A stretch of 64,000 bases of DNA, taken from Nitrosomonadales bacterium. Its GTDB lineage: Bacteria > Pseudomonadota > Gammaproteobacteria > Burkholderiales > Gallionellaceae. Numbering within the stretch: the stretch's first letter is position 1; each line of letters opens with the position of its first letter. The position numbers and the translations under genes were made by a program. Positions 23,155-47,946 of the stretch are shown here, piece after piece. The stretch is from contig JACPYR010000095.1 in assembly GCA_016195965.1 (NCBI GenBank), positions 1-64,000 of the forward strand, given 5' to 3'. A model generated the notes under the pieces. The model was given only the letters and a program-made list of their open reading frames with translations, searched no databases and was not told where the DNA came from.

Positions 23155-23865
23155 TCACTCCAGCAACCCCAGCATCGCTGCCTGAACGGCAGCGGCGGTG
23201 CGGTTTGGCGCCCCCAGTTTTTTTGTGGCATTGTTGGTGTGGAAATTGACGGTGCGCTCGGAGATATTCAGGATATCGGCGATTTCGTTCGATACCTTGC
23301 CCTCCGCCAGCCAGCGCAACACCGCTATCTCCCGGTCAGTAAGTTTCGCTCCGGCGCCGGGCAGATAGTTCTCAATCAGATAAGGCGACAAACCCTGATG
23401 GGCGATGTTGGCCAGCCAGATAATCCTGGTTTTTTTCTCTTCGACTTCGGCCGCAGATATGGCCCGGTTATGAGCCGACAGGTTCAACAGGCCGGCCACA
23501 CCATGGGAGCCGCGCGTAGGCTGCGAGACCCCGGAAAGCGCTCCTGCAGAGCGAGCCGCATGCAACACTTCGGGATCGCGGGCAAACCGCTCATCTGCTG
23601 TCCAGATTATCAATTCCACCGAGCTTAACGCTTGTTGGATCAGCGGATCGATGCTCACATAATCGGCCCGTTCGTAGGTTTGCTTCAAGATTTCCGGATA
23701 ATTGGAAATGGCCATGCCCGTTGGATTGGTGACAGGTAACGGAGCGCGCATCGCGAAAGAGCAAAATTCGAAGCCCATTTCAGCGGACCATAGTGCTATC
23801 TTTCCGAACATCGTTTGCTCGCAATCGATGAAGCGCATCTCCTTCAACTGATATTTCTGCCACAT
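23155..23865 (-). CDS. LuxR-type regulator with autoinducer-binding domain (solo)
   Basis: A 236-residue quorum-sensing-type regulator: N-terminal autoinducer-binding domain (about 15-165) and C-terminal LuxR helix-turn-helix (LTDREIAVLRWLAEGKVSNE onward). Aligned by eye to TraR numbering, Tyr61, Asp70, Pro71 and Trp85 are kept, but position 57 (normally Trp) is Leu in NYPEILKQTY. No luxI synthase is in the window, so it is a solo here. The ATG at 23865 follows GGGGAG. A 20-bp lux-box-like palindrome lies 48 bp upstream, in the gap shared with the divergent phzF gene. Confidence 0.9.
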   Translation of the reverse strand: MWQKYQLKEMRFIDCEQTMFGKIALWSAEMGFEFCSFAMRAPLPVTNPTGMAISNYPEILKQTYERADYVSIDPLIQQALSSVELIIWTADERFARDPEVLHAARSAGALSGVSQPTRGSHGVAGLLNLSAHNRAISAAEVEEKKTRIIWLANIAHQGLSPYLIENYLPGAGAKLTDREIAVLRWLAEGKVSNEIADILNISERTVNFHTNNATKKLGAPNRTAAAVQAAMLGLLE

Positions 23866-23912
23866 CTCCACGTCTCCCCGCGCCCCAATTTATTCAAACG
23901 TTTCAATATCTA

Positions 23913-23932
23913 ACCTGTCAATTCTGACAGCT
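23913..23932. promoter_or_regulatory. lux-box-like operator between luxR and phzF
   Basis: ACCTGTCAATTCTGACAGCT: CTGTCA and TGACAG are exact inverted arms around ATTC, and the outermost A/T also pair. Length, the CTG...CAG half-sites and position match lux boxes bound by LuxR-family dimers. It is 47 bp from the luxR start and 129 bp from the phzF start. Confidence 0.7.
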
Positions 23933-24061
23933 ACCCATCGCATTTGAATTATAGTGCAATGGCATCCGTGGCAGATTGCTTGTGCAGCCCATACAAGGGA
24001 ATATCTACAAGCTCTTCAACCCCAAGCAATTTATAGATTTTCGGAGAAGGATAGCGTACAA

Positions 24062-24937
24062 ATGAAAGCAGGTAGCGCCAGGAAAGTCGCCTTCAGGCAA
24101 GTGGATGTTTTCACCTCTGTGCCGTTCATGGGCAATCCGGTTGCGGTGATTCTCGATGGAGAAGGCCTTTCAACTGGGCAAATGCAATCCATCGCCAACT
24201 GGACCAACCTGTCGGAAACCACTTTCGTGTGTGCGCCTACACATCCGGACGCTGACTACCGCCTGCGTATCTTCACGCCGAGGAGCGAGCTGCCCTTCGC
24301 CGGGCATCCGACCTTGGGCAGCGCGCATGCGCTGTTGCAACAGGGCTTGCAGCCCCGCACACCCGGCAGGCTAGTGCAGGAGTGCGGCAAGGGATTGATC
24401 GACTTGCGCATAGTTGGGCATAGTCTGTTTTTTGCATTGCCTCAACCGGTATTCGCCGCGCCAGATGCAGCGCAGCTTGCTGCCGTGGCTGAGGCGCTGG
24501 GTGTGCAGGCAAGCGGGATCGTTTCAAACGCGATCGTCGATGTTGGCGCAGTCTGGCTGACCTTGCAGTTGCCGTCCGCACAAGGGGTGATCGGACTCAA
24601 GCCAGACATGGCAAGACTGGCGGCGCTAGGTTGCGCCCAGTACATAGGCGTGACCGTGTTCGGGCTTTATGAGGCAGGCAATGCGGCTGTCGAAGTGCGC
24701 TCGTTCGCGCCGGCATGCGGCGTGCCGGAAGACCCGGTCTGCGGCAGCGGCAACGGTTGCGTGGCGGCGTTGATCCGCCGCCATAAAATTCTGCCGGTGT
24801 CGGCCTATACTGCATCGCAGGGGCGCTGCCTGGGGCGCGATGGCTATGTGCAAGTTGAGTTCGCTGCCGATGGCAATATATGGTTGGGCGGCAACGCGGT
24901 GACTTGCATCGAAGGAAAAATAACGGCCCGAGCTTGA
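24062..24937 (+). CDS. PhzF family isomerase/epimerase-like protein
   Basis: A 291-residue PhzF-family protein. The N-terminal FRQVDVFTSVPFMGNPVAV, the NWTNLSETTFV stretch with the catalytic Glu, ELPFAGHPTLGSAHAL and the C-terminal GVPEDPVCGSGNGCVAAL are all diagnostic. PhzF acts in phenazine synthesis, but most members are of unknown substrate, and no other phenazine gene is present. The ATG at 24062 follows AGAAGGATAG; an upstream in-frame ATG would extend over the promoter region. Placement behind the lux-box suggests control by the divergent LuxR. Confidence 0.9.
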   Translation: MKAGSARKVAFRQVDVFTSVPFMGNPVAVILDGEGLSTGQMQSIANWTNLSETTFVCAPTHPDADYRLRIFTPRSELPFAGHPTLGSAHALLQQGLQPRTPGRLVQECGKGLIDLRIVGHSLFFALPQPVFAAPDAAQLAAVAEALGVQASGIVSNAIVDVGAVWLTLQLPSAQGVIGLKPDMARLAALGCAQYIGVTVFGLYEAGNAAVEVRSFAPACGVPEDPVCGSGNGCVAALIRRHKILPVSAYTASQGRCLGRDGYVQVEFAADGNIWLGGNAVTCIEGKITARA

Positions 24938-25060
24938 TACTCCCCGGAAAAAATATGATGGGCAAATTATTGCGCGTCTGGGCGTGACTGCGCAAAAGTG
25001 CGTAGGTGCTCAATTAGAAGGTCAGGGTTTTGGAGTGTTTTTGTTTTTAAGGAGTCGAAT

Positions 25061-25972
25061 ATGTTTGCCGTGCTGATCTTGCTGGTTGTCATCGGAGCCA
25101 GTTTCCCTTATGTAGCACCCGAGAAAGCCACCCATTTAGCGCTCAACGTTGAGCGCTATCGCGCTGACCTCGTCCGCAAGGAAATCGAGCTGCCTAGTGG
25201 CTTGCACTATGTCTATCTGGAGGGCGGTCAGGGCGAGCCGTTGATGCTGCTGCACGGATTCGGCGCAAACAAGGACAACTTCACAAGGGCCGCGCGCTTC
25301 TTGACACCGCACTATCGCGTGATTATTCCCGACCACATTGGTTTCGGCGAATCTTCCCATCCGCAAGAGGCCGACTATTCTCCGCCAGCCCAAGTGGAGC
25401 GGCTGAGATCGCTGGCGCAAGCTCTAGGCATCAAGACTCTTCACCTCGGCGGCAGCTCTATGGGTGGGCAAATCGCCATGACCTATGCGGCGCACTATCC
25501 GGACGAAGTCAAAAGCCTTTGGTTGCTCGGCCCAGCCGGGGTGTGGAGCGCCCCCGAAAGCGAGGTATCCAAAGCCATTGTAAAGACAGGGCATAACTTC
25601 CTGCTGGTCAAAAACGAAGACGATTTCGCGCAGACATTTTCGTTCGTAATGAGCGATCCTCCATTCATTCCCAGACCTATGCTTGATGTGATGGCGCAGG
25701 AACGCATCGGGAATTTCAAACTGGAAGAGCCCATCTTTCAACAGATCGCCGCCTATTCCGTCGAAAATGAAATCGCAGGGCTGGCCACCCCGGCGCTGAT
25801 CGTGTTCGGCGATCAGGATCGCGCGATTCCCGTCGCCACTGCAGAAATACTGCACAAGCTGTTGCCGCATTCGCAGGTCGCCATCATGCCGAGAATCGGC
25901 CATCTACCGATGCTGGAACAACCGCAGCAATGCGCTGACGATTATTTGCAGTTTCGCTCAGTTTTGCGTTGA
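25061..25972 (+). CDS. Membrane-anchored alpha/beta hydrolase
   Basis: A 303-residue hydrolase. A short hydrophobic N-terminus (FAVLILLVVIGASFPYV) probably anchors it or directs export. Motifs: MLLHGFGANKDNF (oxyanion), LGGSSMGGQIAM (nucleophile Ser), FGDQDRAIP (Asp) and IGHLPMLEQP (His). Lipase or ester-hydrolase activity is inferred. The ATG follows AAGGAGTCGAAT. It is 123 bp after phzF, the largest clean gap in the run. Confidence 0.88.
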   Translation: MFAVLILLVVIGASFPYVAPEKATHLALNVERYRADLVRKEIELPSGLHYVYLEGGQGEPLMLLHGFGANKDNFTRAARFLTPHYRVIIPDHIGFGESSHPQEADYSPPAQVERLRSLAQALGIKTLHLGGSSMGGQIAMTYAAHYPDEVKSLWLLGPAGVWSAPESEVSKAIVKTGHNFLLVKNEDDFAQTFSFVMSDPPFIPRPMLDVMAQERIGNFKLEEPIFQQIAAYSVENEIAGLATPALIVFGDQDRAIPVATAEILHKLLPHSQVAIMPRIGHLPMLEQPQQCADDYLQFRSVLR

Positions 25973-25997
25973 ACGATAACCTTTGGGGTCTACCGTA

Positions 25998-26732
25998 ATG
26001 ACTACTGTCACAGAGCACTACGAAAATCATCTGGCCCCAGTCTACCTGTGGATGGCAGGAGGTTTCGATGCCGCTGTTGCTCGCGGTGCGACTGAAATCG
26101 CGGCCATCTGCCCAAATGAATCGAACGGTCTCACCGCCGTCGATCTCGGCTCAGGTTTCGGCATGCATGCCATCCCGTTGGCCCGTCGTGGCTATCTGGT
26201 GCTCGCCATCGATAGTTCTCCGATATTGCTCGATACACTTCGAGATCATGTCGCCACGCTACCAATCCGAACCGTGGAAGATGATCTGCTGGCCTTTCAA
26301 AAACACCTGAATCACAAGGCAGACCTCATCCTGTGTATGGGCGATACGTTGACCCATCTGTCAGGATTGACGACCGTCGAGCAATTATTTTCGCAGGTCG
26401 CAGAGTCGCTGCAGCCGGGTGGCCAGTTCATCGCGACCTTCCGTGACTACACCACCTCCATACTTGAAGATAAACGCTTCATCCCGATAAGGAGTGACGA
26501 CGATAGAATATTGACCTGCTTCCTTGAATACTCTCCCGACTACGTTACCGTCCACGATGTGCTGCATGAACGAAATGGTTCTGCCTGGCAACTGCGAGTC
26601 AGCGCCTATAGAAAACTCCGGCTATCGCCGGGATGGGTTACCACGTCGCTTCAAGCCAGAGGATTTACGGTTCGCATCGAACCAGGACTTGCGGGCATGA
26701 TCCGCGTTACCGCAACGATGGACCAACAATGA
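25998..26732 (+). CDS. Class I SAM-dependent methyltransferase
   Basis: A 244-residue methyltransferase. Motif I is AVDLGSGFGMHAIPLA, followed by AIDSSPILLDTL, DLILCMGDTLTHL and a post-motif LQPGGQFIATFRD. The substrate is unknown. It starts 25 bp after the hydrolase, and its stop overlaps the start of the EamA gene (ATGA). Confidence 0.85.
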   Translation: MTTVTEHYENHLAPVYLWMAGGFDAAVARGATEIAAICPNESNGLTAVDLGSGFGMHAIPLARRGYLVLAIDSSPILLDTLRDHVATLPIRTVEDDLLAFQKHLNHKADLILCMGDTLTHLSGLTTVEQLFSQVAESLQPGGQFIATFRDYTTSILEDKRFIPIRSDDDRILTCFLEYSPDYVTVHDVLHERNGSAWQLRVSAYRKLRLSPGWVTTSLQARGFTVRIEPGLAGMIRVTATMDQQ

Positions 26733-27661
26733 AAAAACTTTCGCCTCATTGGCAAAGCACTATATTCGGCATGCTGGGTGTGCTGGGATTTAGCCTTACG
26801 CTTCCCGCGACGCGATTGGCAGTTGCCGAACTCGATCCAACTTTTGTCGCTCTCGGGCGGGCAATCGTTGCGGCTGTCTTGGCAGGAATTGCGCTCGCGC
26901 TGGCACGTGCCCCTAGACCGTTCGGTATGCAATGGCTACGCTTGACTGGGGTCGCCATCGGCGTAGTGATCGGCTTTCCCGTGCTTTCGACCTGGGCGAT
27001 GACCACGGTGCCGGCGGCTCACGGCGCGGTGGTCGTCGGCCTGTTGCCGTTAGCGACTGCCCTATTTGGCGCGTGGTTGGGCGGCGAACGCCCGCGCCCG
27101 CTTTTTTGGGCTTCAACGTTGGCGGGCGGTATCACCATTGCCATTTTTTCGCTGTCGTCCGGCAGTGGCTCTTTTCATACGGGAGACTTGTTGCTGTTGG
27201 GTGCAGTGATAGCAGCAGGTTTCGGTTATGCCGAAGGCGCGCGCCTATCCCGTGAACTCGGAGCTTGGCAAACAATCAGTTGGGCATTGGTCATATCGGC
27301 TCCCTTGCTGATCTATCCCGTCGTAAAAACCATGCCACAGGACATCGCCGCTGTCGGCTGGCAAAGCTGGTGCGGATTTTCCTATGTCGGCGTGGTCAGC
27401 ATGTTTTTGGCGTTTGTTGTTTGGTACAAAGGACTCGCGCTTGGCGGAATTGCACACATTGGACAGCTTCAATTGCTGCAACCATTCCTGACCATTGCCG
27501 CCGCAGCCATGCTTTTGCATGAGCAGGTCTCGTGGCTGGAAGTGCTGGCGGCGCTGATTGTCATTGCCTGCGTGCTGATCGGCAGAAGAGCCGGGGCGAC
27601 ACCAATTAAAGCCATCAACTCAATAGATCAACATGATGCAGCGCAAGCAGCACATCTATGA
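26729..27661 (+). CDS. EamA/DMT-family transporter
   Basis: A 310-residue inner-membrane protein with about ten hydrophobic segments arranged as two EamA repeats (FGMLGVLGFSLTLPATRLAV and FCGFSYVGVVSMFLAFVVWY-type halves). Members export metabolites or amino acids. It is translationally coupled to the methyltransferase upstream. Confidence 0.88.
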   Translation: MKKLSPHWQSTIFGMLGVLGFSLTLPATRLAVAELDPTFVALGRAIVAAVLAGIALALARAPRPFGMQWLRLTGVAIGVVIGFPVLSTWAMTTVPAAHGAVVVGLLPLATALFGAWLGGERPRPLFWASTLAGGITIAIFSLSSGSGSFHTGDLLLLGAVIAAGFGYAEGARLSRELGAWQTISWALVISAPLLIYPVVKTMPQDIAAVGWQSWCGFSYVGVVSMFLAFVVWYKGLALGGIAHIGQLQLLQPFLTIAAAAMLLHEQVSWLEVLAALIVIACVLIGRRAGATPIKAINSIDQHDAAQAAHL

Positions 27662-27714
27662 GCCAGCCGGGAAACATTAGTCCAATTACGCCAGTGCATA
27701 TCAGGGAGAGTTCC

Positions 27715-28074
27715 ATGGAAAAAGTTAACCTTATTGAGAAATTCGGGAAATTCTCCGAATTGTGGACGCCAAAAATCGTCGGCGAATTGAATGGGCAATA
27801 TGTGAAACTGGCGAAACTCAAGGGCGAGTTCGCATGGCACCACCACGAGGCGGAGGAAGAACTGTTCATGGTGGTGAAAGGCTGCCTGATTATCAAGCTC
27901 CGCGATCGTGACGTGGTGCTGAATGAAGGAGAGCTCTTTATCGTGCCTCGCGGCGTGGAGCACATGCCTGTCGCTCATGAGGAAACTCACGTATTGATGT
28001 TCGAACCCCAAACCACGCTAAACACGGGAAACATCGAAACCGACAAAACCATCAAGCATCTAGAACGCATCTGA
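27715..28074 (+). CDS. Cupin-domain protein
   Basis: A 119-residue single cupin. The first motif is WHHHEAEEELFMVVKG with His/His/Glu metal ligands; the second is VPRGVEHMPVAHEE. Small cupins of this type are often epimerase-like or of unknown function. The ATG at 27715 has GGGAGAG upstream; an ATG overlapping the EamA stop would add 19 unconserved residues. Confidence 0.85.
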   Translation: MEKVNLIEKFGKFSELWTPKIVGELNGQYVKLAKLKGEFAWHHHEAEEELFMVVKGCLIIKLRDRDVVLNEGELFIVPRGVEHMPVAHEETHVLMFEPQTTLNTGNIETDKTIKHLERI

Positions 28075-28089
28075 CACAGAAAGGCCGCC

Positions 28090-28569
28090 ATGAACAACCA
28101 GGAAATTCCCATCGCCGTCGAAGCCATGCAAGTGGTGCCACGCGCTAAGCTGTCGATCTATCCGGAACCTTTTGCCGCGCGGATGAAAGGCCGTGAGAAG
28201 CGTATTATCGGCGACTTGTTTGGCCTGACAAATTTCGGCGTTAACTTGACACGCCTATTGCCCGGCGCGGGATCGTCGCTGCGCCATGCTCATGCCCGGC
28301 AAGACGAGTTCGTTTACATATTGCAGGGCCATCCTGTGCTGCTTACCGATGCGGGGGAGACGCAACTTTCTCCCGGAATGTGCGCTGGATTTAAAGCCGG
28401 TACGGGCAACGCTCACCAGTTGCTTAATCGCACCGATGCAGAAATAATCTATCTTGAAATAGGCGATCGCAGTCCAGGCGATTCCGTCGTATACCCGGAC
28501 GATGACCTTCAAGCGATTCTCGTCGATGGCAAATGGCTGTTTGCACACAAAGACGGCAAGCCCTATTGA
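28090..28569 (+). CDS. Cupin-domain protein (COG3837-like)
   Basis: A 159-residue cupin. Motif one is LRHAHARQDEFVYILQG, motif two GFKAGTGNAHQLLNRTD, and the tail YPDDDLQAILVDGKWLFAHKDG is characteristic of this subgroup. It is unlike the neighbouring cupin in sequence, so the pair is not a recent duplication. 15-bp gap. Confidence 0.85.
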   Translation: MNNQEIPIAVEAMQVVPRAKLSIYPEPFAARMKGREKRIIGDLFGLTNFGVNLTRLLPGAGSSLRHAHARQDEFVYILQGHPVLLTDAGETQLSPGMCAGFKAGTGNAHQLLNRTDAEIIYLEIGDRSPGDSVVYPDDDLQAILVDGKWLFAHKDGKPY

Positions 28570-28606
28570 AACCAATGCCTGTATACAACCAGCCCAACCT
28601 GTAATC

Positions 28607-29038
28607 ATGGACATCGAACCCATTACGGATATTGAAAACGTCAAGACACTGCTTGCCGAATGCGGTCTGCCTGTCGCCGACATTGCCCACTCTAAGCTGC
28701 CGCTGTTCTTTGGCATCCGTGCAGAATCGGGCATGGTCGCAGTCGTCGGCCTTGAGTTATTCGGCTCGGCGGCGTTGCTCCGCTCACTCGCCGTATCCCC
28801 CGCATACCGTAGTCACGGGCTGGCGCGCCGGCTGGTTGAACATGCCGAACATGTTGCGGCATCCGTTGGAGTGGATACATTGTTTCTGCTGACCACCACG
28901 GCTTCCGCTTTCTTCGCCAGGCTGGGTTACATGCCCCTATCCCGGCTTGAGGCTCCGCCGGTTATCAAGGCTACAGCGCAGTTCTCCACGTTGTGTTCAG
29001 AATCATCTGAATTGTTATTGAAAGAAATCCGTCGATGA
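28607..29038 (+). CDS. arsN2: GNAT acetyltransferase, ArsN2-like
   Basis: A 143-residue GNAT. GLELFGSAALLRSLAVSPAYRSHGLARRLVEHAE carries the acetyl-CoA loop, and LFLLTTTASAFFARLGYMPL plus the ending ATAQFSTLCSESSELLLK match arsenic-resistance N-acetyltransferase ArsN2 proteins by eye. No other ars gene is nearby, so the role may differ. Its stop overlaps the next start (ATGA). Confidence 0.78.
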   Translation: MDIEPITDIENVKTLLAECGLPVADIAHSKLPLFFGIRAESGMVAVVGLELFGSAALLRSLAVSPAYRSHGLARRLVEHAEHVAASVGVDTLFLLTTTASAFFARLGYMPLSRLEAPPVIKATAQFSTLCSESSELLLKEIRR

Positions 29039-29508
29039 GCAAATCCAACTTTATGCTTTCCACCTGGCAACGCCTGTCGCATTGGCCGGGAGGAAAATGG
29101 GCGTTTGCCAAACTGGTATGCTGGAAAGCTCCATACTTTGCCAGCATCAAACCGAAGTTTGTGGCCTTGCGTCCCGGCTACTGCGAGGTGTATATCAGGA
29201 AGCGCCGCGCGGTGCTCAACCACATCGGCACAGTGCATGCCATCGCGATGTGCAACATGGCCGAACTCGTCGCAGGTTCGATGACCGATGTCACTATTCC
29301 CGCCACGCACCGCTGGATACCCAAGGGCATGACTGTCGCTTACCTTAAGAAGGCCGAAACCGATTTGCGCGCGATAGCCGAACTGGAACCCGTCCCCGCA
29401 TTTGCAAGTTCCGGGGAGTTGCCGGTGACGGTTAAGGTTCTGGACAGTCTTGGGCAAACTGTAGTCCACGCAGTCATCACGATGTGGGTCGCGCCCAAAA
29501 ATAAATAG
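29035..29508 (+). CDS. DUF4442 hotdog-fold protein
   Basis: A 157-residue protein resembling DUF4442/PaaI-like hotdog thioesterases: NHIGTVHAIAMCNMAELVAG on the central helix, then IPKGMTVAYLKKAETDLRAIAE. Acyl-CoA or acyl-carrier thioester hydrolysis is the family expectation. It is coupled to the ArsN2-like gene by a 4-bp overlap. Confidence 0.78.
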   Translation: MSKSNFMLSTWQRLSHWPGGKWAFAKLVCWKAPYFASIKPKFVALRPGYCEVYIRKRRAVLNHIGTVHAIAMCNMAELVAGSMTDVTIPATHRWIPKGMTVAYLKKAETDLRAIAELEPVPAFASSGELPVTVKVLDSLGQTVVHAVITMWVAPKNK

Positions 29509-29530
29509 TCCATTTAAAAATGGAGAATTC

Positions 29531-30328
29531 TTGAGCAATTTTACGAGCATCTCGCCGCATTACCGGAAAACAGCCCTGCTGCAAAAATCGGCAGCCGAGC
29601 GGCTGTTCGGGATGCTGGACATCGGTCGCGAAGATGATGTGCTGGATCTTGGTTGTGGTCCCGGTCACCTTGCCAACAAAATTCGCGCGATGACGAAAGG
29701 AGTCGTGGCGGGCATTGATCCTTCACCGGGGATGATCGCCGAAGCGCTGCATAACTATCCGGCAGGAATTGAATTCAGTGTTGCCGGAGCTGAAACGTTG
29801 TCGGCAAGCGAACAATACGATGCCATATTCTGCAACTCCGTTTTCCAATGGTTTCGTGATCCGGCGCGTGCCGTTTCCAACTGCCATAATGCGCTGCGCC
29901 CCGGCGGACGCATGGCTATTCAGGCTCCGGCCCGACAAAATTATTGCCCGAATTTTCTGCGCGCAGTCGCCACACTCGGTGACGATACGCGCACGCGGGA
30001 TACTTTCGGGCATTTTATTTCTCCCTGGCTTTTTCTTGATACCGCAGAAGAGTACGCTGCCTTATTCAAAAATGCGGGGTTCAAGGTGTTGTCGTCCGAC
30101 ATTGAACAAGTGCCGCAACTTTGCGGCCCGGAAAAGGTCATGGAGATGTTCGAGTCGGGAGCTGCTGCGGGGTATCTCAACCCGGACTGTTACGATGTCA
30201 CACTGCCTTCAGCTTATATCGGTGCGGCGCGCGAATTGATCGCACAAGATTTTCACGCGCAAACGAAAACAAATGGGCAAGTGGAACTGACATTCAATCG
30301 CATTTATTTATTGGCGCACAAGATATGA
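29531..30328 (+). CDS. Class I SAM-dependent methyltransferase (trans-aconitate MT-like)
   Basis: A 265-residue methyltransferase. Motif I is VLDLGCGPGHLANKIR, then GIDPSPGMIAEA, YDAIFCNSVFQWFRDPARA and LRPGGRMAIQAPA, a pattern like Tam/BioC proteins. The start is a TTG with GGAG 6 nt upstream; no ATG is available. The stop overlaps the next start (ATGA). Confidence 0.83.
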   Translation: MSNFTSISPHYRKTALLQKSAAERLFGMLDIGREDDVLDLGCGPGHLANKIRAMTKGVVAGIDPSPGMIAEALHNYPAGIEFSVAGAETLSASEQYDAIFCNSVFQWFRDPARAVSNCHNALRPGGRMAIQAPARQNYCPNFLRAVATLGDDTRTRDTFGHFISPWLFLDTAEEYAALFKNAGFKVLSSDIEQVPQLCGPEKVMEMFESGAAAGYLNPDCYDVTLPSAYIGAARELIAQDFHAQTKTNGQVELTFNRIYLLAHKI

Positions 30329-30867
30329 AGTTGCCTGACGGGATCGGAGAAAATATATCGCGCTGCACTGGAAAAAATGCGTTGGGAGATGCAGTCAGTC
30401 ATAAGCCAGAAATCATGAGAAGGGGGCCGGGCTTTCTGGCCCGCCTGTTTGCGCTTGCCCCTTCTGGGGACGGGGTCGGTGCCGCTGAAATTAAAAAAGG
30501 TGACGGCGGTGCATTGTTCATACATGGGCGCCCTTCCGCCGCGGGCATCAAACAAGTTATTTCGCTCGTAGCGCAGGGCAAACTGGTTCTCCTATTTCCC
30601 AATGGCACCCGCTCGCGAGAGCAAGTCGAAGCGAAACGTGGTGCAGCAACGATCGCGCTGCAGGCCAAAGCGCAAATTGTCCCCGCGCAGTACGAGGGCC
30701 CTGCGAAAATCCGGTTCAGCCATTTGCTGCGCCGACCGGCTATCCGCGTCACGTTTGGGGTGCCCATCGTAATACAGTCGGATACGCCCGCTGATAAAGA
30801 GGCAGCGTCAATGTTAACTGCCCAACTTGATGAAGCCAAGAAGGCATTGAATTCGGTTAGGCTGTAA
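30325..30867 (+). CDS. PlsC-like acyltransferase lacking the HX4D motif
   Basis: A 180-residue protein matching the later half of glycerophosphate acyltransferases. LVLLFPNGTRSREQVEAKRG corresponds to motif III, and ALQAKAQIVPAQYEG to motif IV. The N-terminal block, where the catalytic NHX4D should stand, reads unrelated sequence (GKNALGDAVSHKPE), so activity is doubtful. It is either a degenerate paralogue or a fragment translated from the overlapping ATGA start. Confidence 0.65.
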   Translation: MKLPDGIGENISRCTGKNALGDAVSHKPEIMRRGPGFLARLFALAPSGDGVGAAEIKKGDGGALFIHGRPSAAGIKQVISLVAQGKLVLLFPNGTRSREQVEAKRGAATIALQAKAQIVPAQYEGPAKIRFSHLLRRPAIRVTFGVPIVIQSDTPADKEAASMLTAQLDEAKKALNSVRL

Positions 30868-30903
30868 GCCCCTTTTTTCATTGGTCGTCATAAGGAATAC
30901 GCC

Positions 30904-31293
30904 ATGGCACAAATCAAGATATACGGTATTAAAGAAAAGCTGGCTCCGGTACGCGAGCGTTTGTCTGAGGTTATCCATGAGTGCGTGATGGAAGCATTGC
31001 AATTGCCAGCCGATAAAAGGGCGCACCGTTTCTTTTTGATGGAACGAGAAGATATGCTCTGCCCGGCAGGACGCACCGATGCCTATACGATCATCGAAAT
31101 CACCCTGATCGAAGGCCGCAGCGTCGAAGCCAAAAAGAAGCTTGTCCGGTTGCTGTTCGACAACATCAGGGACAAGGCCAACATCCGGCATCAGGATATC
31201 GAGATATGCATACAGGAGAGTCCCGCCCACAACTGGGGATTCAGGGGCATGCATGGCGATGAAGTTAAGCTGGATTACAAGATCAATGTCTGA
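30904..31293 (+). CDS. Tautomerase-superfamily protein without Pro1
   Basis: A 129-residue protein of the long tautomerase/MIF-fold group. PAHNWGFRGMHGDEVKL is the family C-terminal signature. After Met it begins Ala-Gln, so the catalytic N-terminal proline is absent, unlike the homologue at 34101. Its 3' part and the 60 bp beyond it are repeated at 32266. Confidence 0.82.
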   Translation: MAQIKIYGIKEKLAPVRERLSEVIHECVMEALQLPADKRAHRFFLMEREDMLCPAGRTDAYTIIEITLIEGRSVEAKKKLVRLLFDNIRDKANIRHQDIEICIQESPAHNWGFRGMHGDEVKLDYKINV

Positions 31294-31347
31294 TTTCATG
31301 TCGGCAAACAAAGGAAAGTAATGCTTAGATATCTGGTGATAACATTC
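31114..31347 (+). repeat. Direct repeat L: tautomerase 3' end plus YciI 5' stub
   Basis: This 234-bp segment covers the 3' end of the tautomerase gene, its spacer and the first codons of a YciI-like gene (ATGCTTAGATATCTGGTGAT), which then breaks off. It is repeated at 32266-32496 with about three-quarters identity and a perfectly matching stretch of about 42 bp over the HNWGFRGMHGDEVK codons. Confidence 0.85.
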
Positions 31348-31389
31348 AGCCACCCCTAACTCAACTTTAATCATCGAGAATATCAGGCC

Positions 31390-31845
31390 ATGGAATCTAT
31401 CGGTACCATTCGCACTTCCTACAAGACAAAGCAGGACTGTCCGATTCAGCCGCTTTATACATCCGGCGTTTTAGGGCGCGTAGAGGTATTGGAACAATAC
31501 GCCGAGGGGTTGAAGGACATTGAAACCTTTTCCCACATCTATCTGCTTTACTTATTCGACCGAGCTGATGCGATCAGCTTGGTTCGTTCCACCTTTTTGG
31601 ACGATACCCCTCACGGTATCTTTGCCTCAAGGCATCCGTGCAGACCAAACGGAATCGGGATGTCCATCGTCAAGCTCATTCGGAGAGAGGGCAATGCTCT
31701 CATCGTCGAGGGAGCTGACGTGCTGGATGAAACGCCGCTCCTGGACATCAAACCCTACATTCCGAAATATGATGCAATTCCTTCAGCAAGCGAAGGATGG
31801 ACGGCCAACAAGCAGTGGCGTCAAAAGCCGGAGGGACGGGAATGA
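31390..31845 (+). CDS. trmO: TrmO/TsaA-like tRNA t6A N6-methyltransferase
   Basis: A 151-residue TsaA/VirR-fold protein. SIGTIRTSYKTKQDCPIQP at the N-terminus, FSHIYLLYLFDRAD and GIFASRHPCRPNGIGMSIVKL are diagnostic. TrmO methylates threonylcarbamoyl-A37 of tRNA-Thr. The C-terminal extension of the E. coli enzyme is absent. It lies on the segment inserted between the direct repeats, so it may be a later arrival. Confidence 0.85.
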   Translation: MESIGTIRTSYKTKQDCPIQPLYTSGVLGRVEVLEQYAEGLKDIETFSHIYLLYLFDRADAISLVRSTFLDDTPHGIFASRHPCRPNGIGMSIVKLIRREGNALIVEGADVLDETPLLDIKPYIPKYDAIPSASEGWTANKQWRQKPEGRE

Positions 31846-31907
31846 CCACGTCCAAGGTTAATCCGGTAGCCCCTTTACGTTAAGCGATATACCCAGAAGA
31901 GAATTAA

Positions 31908-32156
31908 ATGCTGCAACTTCGTCCTTCCTGTGAGTGCTGCGATAAGGCGCTTCCGCCCGAGTCCATTGAGGCACGCATATGTTCGTTCGAGTGTACTTTC
32001 TGTGTATCGTGCGCAGAGTTAGTGCTCCACGGAAAATGTCCAAACTGTGGCGGTGAACTTGTTGCAAGACCAAGGCGCCCATCCTGCAAACTGGCCGCGT
32101 ATCCAGCTTCAACCGAGCATATTTTCAAGCCCGCAGGTTGTGCAAAAGCAGCATGA
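31908..32156 (+). CDS. DUF1272 zinc-ribbon protein
   Basis: An 82-residue Cys-rich protein. CECCDKALPP, ICSFECTFCVSC and GKCPNCGGELVARP give three CxxC pairs, and ECTFCVSCAE is the DUF1272 signature. Zinc binding is expected; function unknown. It is the second gene of the inserted segment. Confidence 0.88.
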   Translation: MLQLRPSCECCDKALPPESIEARICSFECTFCVSCAELVLHGKCPNCGGELVARPRRPSCKLAAYPASTEHIFKPAGCAKAA

Positions 32157-32215
32157 TGTTCGCAATTTCGCTTATCCCATCGCTGCATCAATTCCACGCG
32201 CTTGCGAAGCGAACG

Positions 32216-32262
32216 TTAACCGGCCACTCGGCCACCGCTGTTTAGTGCCTAGTATGCCAAGA
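32216..32262 (+). repeat. Degenerate hairpin repeat copy
   Basis: TTAACCGGCCACTCGGCCAC and the following TAGTGCCTAGTATGCC resemble the hairpin family at 4258, with mismatches. It sits exactly at the left edge of the second direct repeat, so it may mark a recombination junction. Confidence 0.4.
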
Positions 32263-32265
32263 TCG

Positions 32266-32445
32266 AGCCGCATCGTGGAAACCAGGAAAGAATTTATCCG
32301 ACTTCTTTTCAACAAGATCAGGGATCGGGTGAATATTTCGCATCAAGACTTGGAAATTTGCATCACGGAAAGCGCGGCACACAACTGGGGATTCAGGGGC
32401 ATGCATGGCGATGAAGTTAAGTTGAATTACAAGATTAATGTCTGA
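32266..32445 (+). pseudogene. Truncated tautomerase (3' end only)
   Basis: A frame ending in HNWGFRGMHGDEVKLNYKIN reproduces the last 58 residues of the tautomerase at 30904. The sequence before it has no similarity to that gene, so the 5' half is gone. It is part of direct repeat R (32266-32496). A longer open frame from 32047 runs in from noncoding and DUF1272 DNA and is not a natural gene. Confidence 0.85.
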
Positions 32446-32496
32446 TTTTCTGTCGGCATATTAAGGAAAATGATGCGATATCTGGTGACAACATTC
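32266..32496 (+). repeat. Direct repeat R: tautomerase 3' fragment plus YciI 5' end
   Basis: Counterpart of 31114-31347. Here the tautomerase part is truncated and the YciI gene is intact, so the two repeats bracket trmO and DUF1272 like the products of a single recombination event. Confidence 0.85.
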
Positions 32497-32724
32497 CGCA
32501 CCACGCAATTTCAACCATCGGTCATAGACGCGCACTACGCATTCCTGGAGCGGTTGCGGCAGCAGGGCAAGCTAGAACTGGCCGGGCCGTTTACCGATAA
32601 GTCGGGCGGAGCTTATCTGATTAATGCGGCGAACCTGGAAGAGGCAAGAGAACTGGTCTTCAGCGATCCGGTGCATACGTCTCAATCTTCGGTAGTCACG
32701 GTCTATGAATGGAATGCAAAGTGA
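32473..32724 (+). CDS. YciI-family protein
   Basis: An 83-residue YciI-like protein (MRYLVTTFRT start; HYAFLERLRQQGKLELAGPF; SDPVHTSQSSVVTVYEW), a ferredoxin-like fold with a possible His/Asp site. The second of two adjacent ATGs is preferred for its spacing from AAGGAAA. A 5' stub of the same gene remains at 31323. Confidence 0.83.
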   Translation: MRYLVTTFRTTQFQPSVIDAHYAFLERLRQQGKLELAGPFTDKSGGAYLINAANLEEARELVFSDPVHTSQSSVVTVYEWNAK

Positions 32725-32749
32725 ACGGATTATGTCGCAAGAGGTGTAC

Positions 32750-33043
32750 ATGATACGCAGCGCCGAAAGGTATGAGCTGTCCAAGCTTGCCGAAATTTAT
32801 TCGGCATTGTGGCATCTGGCATTTTCCAAACACTTTCCGCCCGAGAATCTGGCGCGCGTAGCGATCTGTGATTTCGAGGAGAGATGGCGTGGCTATTTCG
32901 CAGGCGACGCTGTCAGCTCGTTTGTGTACGAACAGGATTCGGTTCAACTCGGTTTTGCCTTTTTCGGAGAGCAGCGGCTCATACAGCGTTATGGCATCGA
33001 GCTATGTCAGTTGCGCTACGAAAGACAACTACCGCGAGAATAG
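32750..33043 (+). pseudogene. GNAT acetyltransferase N-terminal fragment
   Basis: A 97-residue frame with a good ribosome site (AAGAGGTGTAC). It follows the GNAT pattern (MIRSAERYELSKLAEIYSAL, then FEERWRGYFAG ... VQLGFAFFGE) up to the fourth strand, then stops. The acetyl-CoA loop and C-terminal half are missing, so it is probably inactive. Confidence 0.6.
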
Positions 33044-33082
33044 AATATCTGCACTCCTCTAATGTAAAGAAAGGAAAATGCA

Positions 33083-33376
33083 ATGCCCGCCTATATGCTC
33101 ATCAGAGTCGCCGCAGACGATTCCGCTCAGCTCAGGGATTATCAGACGGCTGTTCCGCCCATCGTCGCAAAATACCGGGGAAAATTCATCGTGAGGGGCG
33201 GCGACACGGTCACGCTGGAAGGGCCGGAAGAATCGCGCCGCATCGTCGTGATCGAGTTTCCAGAGCTGTCCGATGTGCAGGCGTTCTATCACTCGCCAGA
33301 GTATGCGCAGGCGCGCAAGCTACGCGGAGGGGTCGCGAGATTCGAGGCAATCGCCGTGGATGGCATCAAGCTGTAG
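33083..33376 (+). CDS. DUF1330 protein
   Basis: A 97-residue DUF1330 (dimeric alpha-beta barrel) protein: MPAYMLIRVAADDSAQLRDY, FIVRGGDTVTLEG, RIVVIEFPELSDVQAFYHSP and EYAQARKLRG are characteristic. Function unknown. An AAGGAAA ribosome site precedes it. Confidence 0.9.
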   Translation: MPAYMLIRVAADDSAQLRDYQTAVPPIVAKYRGKFIVRGGDTVTLEGPEESRRIVVIEFPELSDVQAFYHSPEYAQARKLRGGVARFEAIAVDGIKL

Positions 33377-33396
33377 GCGGCACATAGGGAGGCGTG

Positions 33397-34071
33397 ATGG
33401 GATTTGATTTATACATCGGCAACAAGAATTATTCGTCGTGGTCGTTGCGCGCATGGCTGTTGCTCAAGCATCTGGGCATACCGTTCACCGAACACATGGT
33501 GTCGGTCGCCGGGCGCGATTACAACGCGGCCTTGCTGCCCATCTCCGCGAATGCCAGGGTGCCTTGCCTGCATGTGGACGGCTTCCAGATTTGGGAAAGC
33601 ATAGCGATAGCGGAATACCTAGCAGAACAATATCCTGATCTATGGCCAGCCGATCCCAAGGCTCGCGCGCGGGCGCGCAGCATCGCGGCGGAAATGCATG
33701 CCGGTTTCGCCAACCTGCGCCGGGCGATGCCGATGAATCTGAAATTCAAACTCAGGGGCAAACCGGCTGAGGCGGCAGTGCAGCGCGACATCGATCGCAT
33801 CGTCGAAATATGGACGGAAGCCCGCACCCGATTCGCAACACCAGACGCAGCCTATCTCTTCGGCGCGTTCTCGGTGAGCGATGCGATGTACGCGCCCATA
33901 GTCTGGCGCTTCCACATCTACAACGTGCCGCTGCCGAAAATTGCGGCAGAATATCGCGACACGATGCTGGCTCACCCCGCGATGCAGGAATGGTATGAAG
34001 CGGCGATAAAGGAAGCCGAGGCGCATGCGCATTACGATCAGCTGGCAATGGAATATGGCGGAGCTCGCTAA
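33397..34071 (+). CDS. Glutathione S-transferase family protein
   Basis: A 224-residue GST. The thioredoxin-like N-domain has YIGNKNYSSWSLRAWLLLKH with a Ser in the active-site region, then ARVPCLHVDGFQIWESIAIAEYL, the glutathione-binding segment. The helical C-domain includes the family DAMYAPIVWRF stretch. The GGGAGGCGTG upstream supports the ATG at 33397. Confidence 0.9.
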   Translation: MGFDLYIGNKNYSSWSLRAWLLLKHLGIPFTEHMVSVAGRDYNAALLPISANARVPCLHVDGFQIWESIAIAEYLAEQYPDLWPADPKARARARSIAAEMHAGFANLRRAMPMNLKFKLRGKPAEAAVQRDIDRIVEIWTEARTRFATPDAAYLFGAFSVSDAMYAPIVWRFHIYNVPLPKIAAEYRDTMLAHPAMQEWYEAAIKEAEAHAHYDQLAMEYGGAR

Positions 34072-34100
34072 ACAAACGCAATTTCATAAAAGGAAAAAAC

Positions 34101-34496
34101 ATGCCCAGCGTGCTGATCGAAGTAAGACGACAATACACTCAAGCGCAAGAAGTCGCGCTGATGGAAGCGGTCCATACCGCCTTGCGTGAGGCTTTCAAGA
34201 TATTACCCGACGACAGGAACGTGCGGCTGGTGGTTCACGAACCGCACCGCTTTATCTGCCCTCCCGACAAGGAACATCCCGAGCTCTATACGCACATCAG
34301 CATAGACGCTTTTGCGGGACGTTCCCTCGATGCCAAGCGCAACCTGTACAAGGCCGTCGTCAACAACCTGGAAGCGCTTGGGGTACCCAAGGATCACGTA
34401 AAGATATTGCTTCGTGAAATTCAGAAAGAGAACTGGGGCATACGCGGCGGCCAGGCTGGCTGCGATGTCGAGCTGGGCTTCAAGGTCGAGGTATAG
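34101..34496 (+). CDS. Tautomerase-superfamily protein with Pro1
   Basis: A 131-residue homologue of the protein at 30904 (KENWGIRGGQAGCDVELGFK at the C-terminus). It begins MPSVLIEVRR, so Pro1 would be exposed after Met removal and could act as the catalytic base. The substrate is unknown. An AAGGAAAAAAC site precedes it. Confidence 0.85.
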   Translation: MPSVLIEVRRQYTQAQEVALMEAVHTALREAFKILPDDRNVRLVVHEPHRFICPPDKEHPELYTHISIDAFAGRSLDAKRNLYKAVVNNLEALGVPKDHVKILLREIQKENWGIRGGQAGCDVELGFKVEV

Positions 34497-34576
34497 CACT
34501 ATGCACATGAGCCATCACGCAAGTGTGATATGCCGATTTATTGACTACAGGTTAACCATTATGGAGAAAAAATAGC

Positions 34577-35320
34577 ATGGCTATCATCCTTGCACTTGTT
34601 ATTGTCATCGCAGCAACTGCGGTGATACTTAATCTTGGACATTTCGCGAACAGGTCGCCATACTCCGCAAGCGGCTTGGCATATATCGACACCCAATTCA
34701 AATATCAAACTCTGCTGCTTGGTGTGGCCGCAATAGTTCTGCTTGGCCTCTATTTCGTGAATGCCGAAAATTTCTGGTCGTATCTCGCGCCGGGAAATAT
34801 TGGCGCACCGGCCAAGGGCGTGGCATGGTTGGGCATCTATGACCATCAGTCGTGGGTTGGCGTGGGTGTCGCACTTTCCTTTTTCATCACGTTCGGCACG
34901 TCAACTTTCGTCTATCTGCAATTCCGCAAATCAGGCGGCGCGTTGAAGCATGCCTTCCACTATCTGTCGTGGATACTGCTGTTTTCCTGCACCAATGCAT
35001 TTTCGGAAGAGGTCGTTTATCGTCTCGGCGTTGTTGTGCCGCTCGCGGGTTCGATTGATACAAGCTACATCCTGCTCATTTCGGCCATTGCCTTTGGCGC
35101 GCCGCATCTTCGCGGCATGCCCAACGGTATTGTGGGTGCGCTGATGGCAGGCTTTCTAGGCTGGCTGCTGGCAAAGTCGGTGATCGAAACGAATGGAATA
35201 TTCTGGGCATGGTTCATCCATTTCCTACAGGACATCCCGATCTTTTCGGCTTTTGTTATGGCAGCGGCCAGCACTGCATTCGAGCGGGACGCACACAAAG
35301 CAGTGCGTCCCTCAATTTGA
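34577..35320 (+). CDS. CPBP family intramembrane metalloprotease
   Basis: A 247-residue multi-pass membrane protein (about seven segments). The CPBP/Abi catalytic residues are visible: E144-E145-xxx-R149 (SEEVVYRLG), His177 (FGAPHLRG) and His214 (WFIHFLQD). It belongs to the family of Rce1-like prenyl-CAAX proteases and bacteriocin-immunity proteins. Ribosome site GGAG, 9 nt upstream. Confidence 0.88.
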   Translation: MAIILALVIVIAATAVILNLGHFANRSPYSASGLAYIDTQFKYQTLLLGVAAIVLLGLYFVNAENFWSYLAPGNIGAPAKGVAWLGIYDHQSWVGVGVALSFFITFGTSTFVYLQFRKSGGALKHAFHYLSWILLFSCTNAFSEEVVYRLGVVVPLAGSIDTSYILLISAIAFGAPHLRGMPNGIVGALMAGFLGWLLAKSVIETNGIFWAWFIHFLQDIPIFSAFVMAAASTAFERDAHKAVRPSI

Positions 35321-35355
35321 ACATTAGCCCTGAAACAATTGTCACGGAGATGAAA

Positions 35356-35919
35356 ATGATAAAAGACCTGCACACTTTACCCGCTAATTTACCGGTTCCA
35401 GTAGATGACGGCGCATGCGACCATTTACCGGGAAGTACCCTGCCTTCGGTGCCGCTGACTAGCGCCGCAGGAAAAGCTGTTGATCTCAGCACTTATACGG
35501 GCACACTGGTTATTTACTTCTACCCCATGCTGGGTCGTCCCGATAGCCCGCCCCTTATCGGCTGGAATGAAATACCCGGCGCCAGGGGATGCACTCCGCA
35601 AACCTGCGCCTTCCGCGATTCACACACCGAGTTGAAACAGCTCGGTGTCGAGGTGTTTGGTGTGAGCGCGCAACGTTTTGAAGACCAACAAGAAGCCCAT
35701 GCAAGACTGCACCTCCCCTTTGCGTTACTCAATGACGGGCAACTTGCGTTGGCCAAGGCGATGAAGCTGCCCACATTCGAGTATGCGGGCATACGCCTGA
35801 TAAAGCGCTTAACGCTTGTCGCGACGGGTGGCGTTATCCGCAAGGTTTTTTATCCGGTGTTCCCGCCCAACAACAATGCGGCTGAAGTCATCGCATGGCT
35901 TACGGCGCACCAGGCCTGA
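35356..35919 (+). CDS. Peroxiredoxin (PrxQ/BCP-like)
   Basis: A 187-residue thiol peroxidase-like protein. GARGCTPQTCAFRDSHTEL holds the peroxidatic Cys and a resolving Cys four residues later, followed by GVEVFGVSAQ and LPFALLNDGQLALAKAM. It reduces peroxides using thioredoxin-type donors. The second of two near ATGs (35356) has GGAG at the correct spacing. Confidence 0.85.
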   Translation: MIKDLHTLPANLPVPVDDGACDHLPGSTLPSVPLTSAAGKAVDLSTYTGTLVIYFYPMLGRPDSPPLIGWNEIPGARGCTPQTCAFRDSHTELKQLGVEVFGVSAQRFEDQQEAHARLHLPFALLNDGQLALAKAMKLPTFEYAGIRLIKRLTLVATGGVIRKVFYPVFPPNNNAAEVIAWLTAHQA

Positions 35920-35927
35920 CATACATC

Positions 35928-36392
35928 ATGGCGCAATACACCGCAGAAGTACTCTGGTTAAGGGGAGAGCAGGGCTTTCTCGATAACCGCTACAGCAGGA
36001 AGCACACGTTTCGTTTCGACGGCGGCGCGGAAGTGCACGGCTCCTCATCGCCCCACATCGTGCCGCTGCCGATGTCCGACGCATCGGCGGTTGACCCTGA
36101 AGAGGCGTTTGTCGCCGCGCTATCGAGCTGCCATATGCTGTGGTTCCTGTCCCTTGCGGCCGGGCAGAAGTTTTGCGTTGATCGCTATTTTGATGCGGCA
36201 ATTGGCGTACTGGATAAAAATGCGGAAGGAAAAATATCCATGACCGTAGTCACGCTGCGACCAGAAGTGATTTTTTCCGGGGATCACTTGCCGACGCGCG
36301 AGCAAATCAACCGGATGCACCATGAGGCGCATGAGCTGTGCTACATCGCCAACTCCGTGAACACCGAGGTGCGCTGTGAACCGGTTTTCTGA
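35928..36392 (+). CDS. OsmC family peroxiredoxin
   Basis: A 154-residue OsmC-like protein. VDPEEAFVAALSSCHMLWFL contains the first catalytic Cys and HHEAHELCYIANSVNTEVRC the second, the two-cysteine layout of organic-hydroperoxide reductases. It starts 8 bp after the peroxiredoxin gene, making an antioxidant pair. Confidence 0.9.
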   Translation: MAQYTAEVLWLRGEQGFLDNRYSRKHTFRFDGGAEVHGSSSPHIVPLPMSDASAVDPEEAFVAALSSCHMLWFLSLAAGQKFCVDRYFDAAIGVLDKNAEGKISMTVVTLRPEVIFSGDHLPTREQINRMHHEAHELCYIANSVNTEVRCEPVF

Positions 36393-36452
36393 CACACCGT
36401 TTATATCATCCGGTACTGCCGGATCAACCGCCAAAATTCGAGGTGCCGCTTC

Positions 36453-36854
36453 ATGGACATAATTTATCGCGACGATGCCAAGATCACCGTCGAGGCCGCC
36501 ATTGATCTCTACAAACGCTCCACGCTGGGCGAGCGGCGTCCCGTGGATCGCCCGGATATCTTCGCTGGCATGCTCGATCATGCCAGCATCACCCTCACCG
36601 CCTGGCATGGCGAGCGCCTTGTCGGCATCTCACGCGCGCTCACGGATTTTAGCTATGTGGCCTATCTCGCAGACCTCGCCGTTGACGCCGCTTACCAGCG
36701 GCGCGGCATAGGCAAGCGTCTGATCGAGGAGACGAAGAGCAGGCTGGGGCGGGAGTGCATGATCGTGCTGTTGGCCGCGCCGGATGCCAACGCGTACTAT
36801 GCGAAAATCGGCTTCGAGCACAACCCGCGCGCGTGGGTGCTGCCGGGTGGTTAG
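36453..36854 (+). CDS. GNAT family N-acetyltransferase
   Basis: A 133-residue GNAT. ISRALTDFSYVAYLADLAVD then YQRRGIGKRLIEETK (acetyl-CoA pyrophosphate loop) and NAYYAKIGFEHNPRAWVL. The substrate is unknown. Confidence 0.88.
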   Translation: MDIIYRDDAKITVEAAIDLYKRSTLGERRPVDRPDIFAGMLDHASITLTAWHGERLVGISRALTDFSYVAYLADLAVDAAYQRRGIGKRLIEETKSRLGRECMIVLLAAPDANAYYAKIGFEHNPRAWVLPGG

Positions 36855-36955
36855 TCTTGAATTTGCAGCGACACAGGAAACATTCTGTTATGAAAAGGGG
36901 GCGTAATGAGCGGGATATATCAAATGATAATTTTTCACGGCACCGTTAAGTTGTT

Positions 36956-37345
36956 ATGCAAGTGATAAACCTTTCTTCCGCCGAACATTACACTTGGGGT
37001 GAGGTTTGCGAAGGCTGGCATCTTCTCAAGAGCGCCGATCTGAGTGTCATTCAGGAACGGGTGCCGCCCGGTCGCGGCGAAGTCAAACACTTCCATTCCT
37101 ACGCGAGACAGTTTTTCTTTGTCCTGTCCGGTGTTGCCAGCCTCGAATTCGAAGACAAGACCGTGAGCTTCAGAAGCGGCCAGGGAGTTCATGTGCCGCC
37201 GCTGACATCCCACCGCTTTACAAATCATTCGGATGAGGAGGTGGTCTTCTTGGTCATCTCGTCGCCACCCACAGCCGGAGATCGCACCAATATAACTATA
37301 GCCGGAATCGAGTTTAATCTGCCGTTATCACAAGCCACCGATTAA
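36956..37345 (+). CDS. Cupin-domain protein
   Basis: A 129-residue cupin. EVKHFHSYARQFFFVLSGVA supplies the metal-binding His residues, and GVHVPPLTSHRFTNHSDEE the second motif. It is the third cupin of the run and different from the other two. The 101-bp gap before it holds nothing recognised. Confidence 0.85.
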   Translation: MQVINLSSAEHYTWGEVCEGWHLLKSADLSVIQERVPPGRGEVKHFHSYARQFFFVLSGVASLEFEDKTVSFRSGQGVHVPPLTSHRFTNHSDEEVVFLVISSPPTAGDRTNITIAGIEFNLPLSQATD

Positions 37346-37369
37346 CTCTCCTGTTCTAAATTTATCGCC

Positions 37370-37801: not shown

Positions 37802-37820
37802 TCAAAAGGAATATGCCGAT

Positions 37821-38288: not shown

Positions 38289-38293
38289 AAAGA

Positions 38294-38977: not shown

Positions 38978-39073
38978 CCCTGCACTTGGATTTGCCGGTA
39001 TGCATACTCTTTGCGGCTTGTACTCTTACGAACTTGCAAGATGGTTTTATCCAATCAATTGGGAGGAATGCCG

Positions 39074-47611: not shown

Positions 47612-47792
47612 ACATAAAAGCTATCACCATGGCACAAACTAACGGTTGCTTTATAAAGTAACTGAAAGTATTATATGAAAGCCACTCGATTGGCAGGGGT
47701 TTGGGTCGGGCCGAATTAAGCCGGGAATTTCCAGAGAAGTGCATGCGGATGTCGCATCCGCCACGCCCTGGATCGCGTAGCGGGGCGGGAAT

Positions 47793-47889: not shown

Positions 47890-47946
47890 TGGGAGATAGC
47901 GCAATCGAAAGAAACCCAACGGTTACTTTATAGGGAGGCATCACCG

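Follow-up and report, generated by a model that had tools for sequence, protein, structure and literature searches.

The window, a 64,000-nt stretch of DNA from a Nitrosomonadales bacterium, contains a solo LuxR-type regulator gene (luxR), a perfect lux-type box and a divergent phzF gene that heads a long one-strand run of enzyme genes (the array). Judged from the sequence, this arrangement is probably a switch in which the solo LuxR acts on an orphan luxI-type promoter and drives phzF and, probably, the array. Many relatives have luxR followed by a box, a DUF4902 gene, a second box and luxI; the window lacks both the DUF4902 gene and luxI. The assembly from which the window was taken comprises 2.73 Mb in 95 contigs and is 82.9% complete. 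The parts of the predicted switch are:

23155–23871, minus strand: solo LuxR, 238 aa, GTG start (ATG at 23865 as alternative); assigned by Pfam, structure model and homolog alignment
LuxR domains: ligand-binding, residues ca. 1–165; GerE helix-turn-helix, ca. 176–229; Leu62 at the TraR-W57 position
23913–23932: lux-type box, perfect 6-4-6 palindrome; core 23915–23930 with half-sites CTGTCA and TGACAG around ATTC, CTGTCAATTCTGACAG
23916–23921, minus strand: TTGACA inside the box, candidate −35 element of luxR, which bound LuxR would cover
23955–23960, plus strand: predicted phzF −10 element TGCAAT, one base off the usual luxI spacing; position predicted from the matrix score
24062–24937, plus strand: PhzF-family isomerase, first gene of the run; PF02567, 210 bits; nearest solved chains 1ym5 and YddE; start placed by choice at ATG 24062 (the listed frame opens at 23954)

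Both domains of the LuxR scored over the Pfam cut-offs (PF03472, 86 bits; PF00196, 75 bits), and it is the sole PF03472 protein of its assembly. The sequence-only reading, which had described a LuxR with an autoinducer-binding domain divergent from a PhzF gene and no luxI in the window, was correct on both points. The genome-wide search for luxI that it had proposed gave no true luxI in the 83% of the genome at hand; the sole PF00765 match, a weak one on contig C70, was rejected, its 130 bits to PF13444 against 24 to PF00765 pointing to an OlsB-like acyltransferase (179–181 bits to the OlsB equivalog models, under those models' own cut-offs). It adjoins a PlsC-type acyltransferase gene (L001), and the two are probable ornithine-lipid genes. 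With an autoinducer-binding domain, a helix-turn-helix domain and no luxI nearby or in the 82.9%-complete assembly, the protein is a LuxR solo. Among the 76 genomes of the genus, own genome counted, 12 have a PF03472 protein; a luxI adjoins a related luxR in two of the other 75 (G057 and G068), and the pairing of a solo LuxR with phzF was seen in the own genome only. A plasmid search gave best identities, among the matches listed, of 38% for LuxR and 55% for PhzF. In G068 (L045; contig C30, 12172–14116) luxI has an in-frame TAG and luxR is split over two frames, so that the pair looks broken.

The box, searched at up to 3 mismatches, was matched once in 64 kb and in 0 of 100 shuffles. The 23915–23930 core is the only exact CTGTCA-N4-TGACAG in 2.73 Mb; the check for further copies, likewise proposed beforehand, gave 3 one-mismatch sites, none with a luxI-type flank (best −7.3 bits). 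Other box copies were accordingly rejected as a regulon, two-mismatch sites not being taken one by one. LuxR homologs were collected from 150 relatives searched with the LuxR (13 loci) and from a collection searched with an eight-LuxR alignment (80 loci, the best of 461). In 61 of the 80 collection loci a box match of at least 10/12 lay no more than 2 kb from luxR (reversed pattern, 8/80); for at least 11/12 the number was 47 (1/80) and for 12/12 it was 24 (1/80); 51 of the 80 have a luxI homolog in the examined stretch. By this conservation the box is a real, conserved LuxR-type site, and the lux-box-like operator seen earlier between luxR and phzF stands as a perfect dyad kept beside homologous luxR genes.

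The direction in which the box works was approached through its flanks. Where luxI is present, the box has TTAC behind it and, 23 nt past the box end, a −10 element like TNAAAT, and in most of these loci the box stands ca. 60 nt before luxI; such spacing puts the box near −43, as in a class-II lux promoter. A luxI-flank weight matrix was built from 34 luxI promoters (L037 and L039 left out). The phzF-side flank scored 11.6 bits with the −10 part shifted by +1, a freedom granted equally to the luxI promoters and the shuffles; the leave-one-out median of the luxI promoters was 9.1 bits, and the intergenic region, dinucleotide-shuffled 2000 times, gave a mean of −8.2 (standard deviation 6.0), none reaching 11.6. 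The luxR-side flank gave −2.2 bits with the same matrix. A phzF transcript start is expected from these positions near 23967.

Among loci with divergent luxR and luxI, 20 have two boxes, 512–688 bp apart, and in 20/20 a DUF4902-like gene lies between them (counted by homology; confirmed by Pfam on two). DUF4902 is presumably the RsaM-like family; no homolog was found in the window. In many of the 20 two-box loci (L107, 7435–7857, and 19 others) the distance from each box to the gene that it faces is ca. 60 nt. Matrices from the 20 loci scored the phzF side as luxI-like (9.0; DUF4902-like −2.5, luxR-like −1.2), and the luxR side as luxR-like (5.1, from a weak matrix). The single box of the window looks, from this combination, as if it joined the outer half of one ancestral box to that of another; recombination between two palindromes would give such a box, and such an event may have occurred here. 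Of the earlier proposal of an operator shared by luxR and phzF, the activator-type flank facing phzF is retained; the luxR side has a luxR-type flank only.

According to the proposed mechanism, a ligand-bound LuxR dimer would bind the box and recruit RNA polymerase at ca. −43 of the phzF start; activation would turn on phzF and probably also the co-directional array of detoxifying and modifying enzymes, and LuxR would damp its own gene via the TTGACA that the box contains. Other cells or an unrecognised source would supply the ligand.

The same-strand run of 17 kb behind the operator, noted from the start, was recovered from 24062 to 40060, or to 41504 if the cytochrome c gene is counted. Of the 27 gaps between its curated genes, several of whose start codons were chosen by hand, 20 measure at most 40 nt or are overlaps; curated genes were used because the automatic run count ends in the window at an antisense open reading frame (ORF), 28927–29550. 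A single transcript over 17 kb is plausible from the gene spacing. The following genes, all on the plus strand and assigned by Pfam, come after phzF:

25061–25972: alpha/beta hydrolase
26001–26732: S-adenosylmethionine (SAM) methyltransferase; homolog in the Methylomonas LW13 array (L106), 171 bits
26723–27661: EamA transporter
27679–28074: cupin
28090–28569: cupin; homolog in the array of L097, 293 bits
ca. 28604–29038: GNAT
29035–29508: DUF4442
29531–30328: methyltransferase
within 30121–30867: PlsC-type acyltransferase
30904–31293: tautomerase; recurs in methanotroph arrays
31390–31845: TrmO-like
31908–32156: DUF1272
32047–32445: tautomerase remnant
32470–32724: YCII
33083–33376: DUF1330
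33394–34071: GST; recurs in methanotroph arrays
34101–34496: tautomerase; recurs in methanotroph arrays (L093, 234 bits)
34577–35320: CPBP protease-like
ca. 35344–35919: redoxin
ca. 35931–36392: OsmC
36453–36854: GNAT
36956–37345: cupin; recurs in methanotroph arrays
37370–37801: glyoxalase
37833–38288: GNAT; recurs in methanotroph arrays
ca. 38300–38977: M23 peptidase
39011–40060: zinc-type dehydrogenase; run end, array membership uncertain
40812–41504: cytochrome c; run end, array membership uncertain

The enzyme set (GST, redoxin, OsmC, glyoxalase, tautomerases, acetyl- and methyltransferases) suggests chemical self-protection. A 210-nt duplication (31115–31324 and 32267–32476, 77% identity) comprises a tautomerase end and a YCII start, with the TrmO-like and DUF1272 genes between the copies; as read from the two copies, it is a trace of array growth. 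A phenazine locus, that is, phzF together with phzE and other phz genes, was considered and rejected: the sole chorismate-binding enzyme (516-residue frame) is encoded on contig C52, not near phzF, and no phz partner occurs among the annotated array genes. PhzF orthologs were found in 7 of the 76 genus genomes, own genome included (best other, 36% identity).

The same layout was found in methanotrophs. The LuxRs closest to that of the window (42–47% identity) are mostly from Methylobacter and Methylomonas; twelve of these are solos within the examined stretch (≤8 kb on each side), with no luxI and no DUF4902 homolog there. Their box lies ca. 78–106 nt upstream of luxR, and in 12/12 scored the flank facing away from luxR is of the luxI type (7.6 to 12.9 bits), unlike the flank on the luxR side. 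In 8 of the 12, followed over 8 kb on the divergent side, 87/87 ORFs point away from luxR. Eight loci, when extended, have one-strand runs of 9.4–21.8 kb, some ends of which look like antisense ORFs. In the other 68 loci the 99th percentile of one-strand block length was 7.6 kb (2/283 reached 8 kb); as 11/210 control blocks of LW13 reached 10 kb, the length of a run is by itself no more than suggestive. The head genes differ: L091 and L094 have GST, L093 has GNAT and L099 an FMN-reductase/transglutaminase-like gene. In LW13 (L106, 6609–7723) the FMN-reductase-like gene next to luxR is in two overlapping frames, and in L093 and L099 it is in one frame; a frameshift or a sequencing error may be the cause.

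Window array genes were counted on the array strand of the 12 methanotroph loci; L204, a wrong contig, was left out of the counts. Homologs were found of the cupin 36956–37345 in 7 loci, the tautomerase 30904–31293 in 7 (198–207 bits), the GNAT 37833–38288 in 8 (192–234 bits), the GST 33394–34071 in 5 (170–188 bits) and the DUF1330 gene in 5 (48 bits). Homologs of window genes also stand outside the arrays: one of the old yellow enzyme (OYE) type in L101, across luxR from the array, and a pirin homolog on the opposite strand in L097. In Methylomonas LW13 five window array genes, each at least 100 bits, lie within 18 kb beside luxR, while 40 control stretches of the same genome (800 kb) gave none at ≥40 bits; cytochrome c, dehydrogenase, pirin and OYE were excluded from this control, which has a cytochrome c homolog of 147 bits and does detect other genes. 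The cupin 36956–37345 is single-copy in 6 of the 12 methanotroph genomes searched, each time at the luxR locus. The GNAT 37833–38288 is 70–72% identical in L092 and L094 and had no match at 1e-15 in the other 75 genus genomes; in 8 remaining relatives its best match was 44–49% identical, with no other window array gene above 60 bits nearby. Homologs of the tautomerase were found class-wide in 11 of 369 genomes, own included; the ten others have no luxR match above 50 bits nearby, and 9/10 of their contexts consist of unrelated genes. One tautomerase context (L277) has an 11/12 box-like site and no luxR match above 50 bits.

The ligand domain of the receptor has diverged. The AlphaFold2 model of the window LuxR has a mean pLDDT of 91.5 and QscR as best PDB match. 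At the TraR-W57 position, where Trp contacts the lactone in the TraR, LasR and QscR structures, the window LuxR has Leu62; Trp was found in 91/91 homologs (two of 93 gapped). Of the six residues of the N-acyl-homoserine lactone (AHL) pocket (W57, Y61, D70, P71, W85 and G113, TraR numbering) the other five are kept; W57 is counted among six conserved LuxR pocket residues in PMC10134790. Identity in the ligand domain is ca. 31%, compared with the usual 47 ± 5% at a DNA-binding-domain identity of 60–65%; the DNA-binding domain itself is up to 72% identical to relatives. In the tree (L037, L039, L043, L045 and L147 left out as duplicates, split or partial frames) the window LuxR is placed with methanotrophs and Competibacteraceae, with weak support (SH-aLRT 88). 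This divergence together with the W57L exchange suggests a changed ligand, or decay. With Leu at that position, the ligand is probably not a standard AHL, or else an AHL is held differently. The signal made by neighbours, as first proposed, draws some support from the relative MmsR, reported to answer an AHL of another species (PMC10134790); a plain AHL is less certain, given Leu62 and the diverged ligand domain.

A wider reading can be put forward tentatively, at somewhat less than even confidence: a recurrent module in which a solo LuxR keeps the luxI promoter after the loss of luxI, and this promoter becomes the entry of a shuffled, partly horizontally shared detoxification array in methanotrophs and in an iron-oxidiser lineage. 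In the window the receptor would be re-tuned off the lactone ring, so that a non-standard signal from neighbouring cells, picked up by eavesdropping, would turn on the array as an arsenal. In this comparison phzF is one variable head gene and the array is the recurring part. Taken as a whole, the first interpretation holds for the solo LuxR, the conserved box and the promoter signature toward phzF; the shared operator and the place given to phzF were changed, and a plain AHL became less certain.

Several results weigh against the switch. Without the +1 shift of the −10 part the phzF-side score is −2.6, and scans for sigma-70 promoters and terminators gave sites no more numerous than in shuffles. 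The gap of 123 nt behind phzF could hold another promoter, and none of 93 other loci has a PhzF homolog next to luxR. Among loci without luxI or with a displaced luxI, four (L100, Methylobacter tundripaludum SV96, with luxI nearby; L113; L117; L122) have low luxI-type flank scores (−5.5 to 3.5). The methanotroph and Methylomonas loci share ancestry, so that the shared-gene counts are not independent. One contig (L273/L278, G171, C37) carries a one-strand run of tautomerase, PhzF, GFA, GNAT, DUF1801-like and methyltransferase-like genes with wider gaps and no luxR match; it could be a cassette array, and such arrays are not exclusively LuxR-headed. The window LuxR has, finally, the longest branch of 87 (1.75), which could mean decay.

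Some of these points belong to rival explanations. That the array is a generic small-enzyme cluster independent of LuxR, with luxR at its head by chance or through a region that collects foreign genes, is a rather doubtful account: the comparable run without luxR match just described and the strong variation of content between genomes (L109 has no window array gene on its divergent side) speak for it, whereas the contrast in LW13 of five genes in 18 kb with none in 800 kb, the cupin at the luxR locus in 6/6 genomes possessing it, and the unrelated surroundings of the distant GNAT (8/8 relatives) and tautomerase (9/10) homologs do not. It is unlikely that autoregulation of luxR is the sole function of the box, with phzF and the array as neighbours under promoters of their own. 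Such a role would suit the distance of the box, 43–49 nt from the luxR start against 131 nt from phzF (ca. 60 nt being usual for luxI), and the luxR-type matrix fits the luxR side; the luxI-type signature is nevertheless on the phzF side and not on the luxR side, with the same asymmetry in all 12 methanotroph solos scored.

A LuxR in decay, or one independent of ligand, with its ligand domain freed of constraint after luxI loss, has a similarly small chance of being the explanation. The long branch, the loss of a residue otherwise conserved in 91/91 homologs, the low ligand-domain identity and the broken-looking pair of G068 in the same genus would agree with it; the intact frame of 238 codons, five of six key residues, the well-kept DNA-binding domain, the confident fold and the perfect box would not. 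Since the assembly is 82.9% complete, a luxI could lie in the missing 17% and make this an ordinary split quorum-sensing pair, as the luxI genes of G057 and G068 beside related luxR genes might suggest; this is very unlikely, for luxI mostly adjoins luxR in luxI-bearing relatives, where the window has another gene, and the methanotroph solos have no luxI in the examined stretch. Small one-strand genes of families common in integron cassettes would be consistent with an integron cassette array, an explanation of negligible weight that was rejected: no integron integrase in the assembly exceeds the cut-off (best 87 bits, cut-off 265), 20 of the 27 gaps are too short for attC, which is longer than 40 nt, and no recurring intergenic repeat family is among those listed, no dedicated attC model search having been made.

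To our knowledge, the targets of most solo LuxRs have not been established. Solo LuxRs, lux boxes and MmsR are already known. MmsR of Methylomonas sp. LW13 is given as a class B LuxR solo, i.e., one for exogenous AHL, with a reported response to the AHL 3-OH-C10-HSL, which another methanotroph produces (Bez et al. 2023, PMC10134790). The LuxR of L106 is presumably MmsR, as judged by strain and by the neighbouring FMN reductase gene, not by accession. It is 43% identical to the window LuxR, has no luxI in the examined stretch and shares the box, the luxI-type flank toward a divergent one-strand enzyme run, also present in the window, and the five array genes of at least 100 bits; it differs in the head gene (FMN reductase instead of PhzF), in Trp at the W57 position and in the distance of the box from luxR (106 nt, compared with 43–49 nt in the window). 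QscR of Pseudomonas aeruginosa and RhlR are the best solved structures for the window LuxR by fold and sequence, at 34–37% identity; QscR is a solo as well and adjoins a phenazine operon, according to the same source (PMC10134790), but its W62 is Leu in the window LuxR, and the PhzF of the window stands alone, outside any phz operon. The luxR–DUF4902–luxI loci of Burkholderiales and others have the same LuxR subfamily, box and luxI-type flank, but the window has neither luxI nor DUF4902. Plant-associated solos of the OryR, XccR and PsoR type also have an altered W57 position, but are described with Met/Trp at 57/61 and a neighbouring pip gene (PMC10134790); the window LuxR has Leu/Tyr.

A literature search gave no paper in which a solo LuxR is linked to such an array or has PhzF as its target, although RNA-seq in the primary MmsR paper may already show part of the array result. 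Nor did it give any paper that treats the shared array, the orphan promoter of luxI or a Leu at W57, the Leu substitution not being searched as such. If the layout of LuxR, box and array is regulated in several lineages, cross-species signalling would gain a concrete output in the form of a changeable set of protective enzymes; if the reading is true, a route would be given from a quorum-sensing pair to a listening-only system via luxI loss and promoter reuse. The Leu62 receptor would be a testable case of ligand change.

Farther along the window, the ORF 47701–49086 has many repeats of the GKVLVAGG type (Kelch-like by eye) after a lipoprotein-like stretch.

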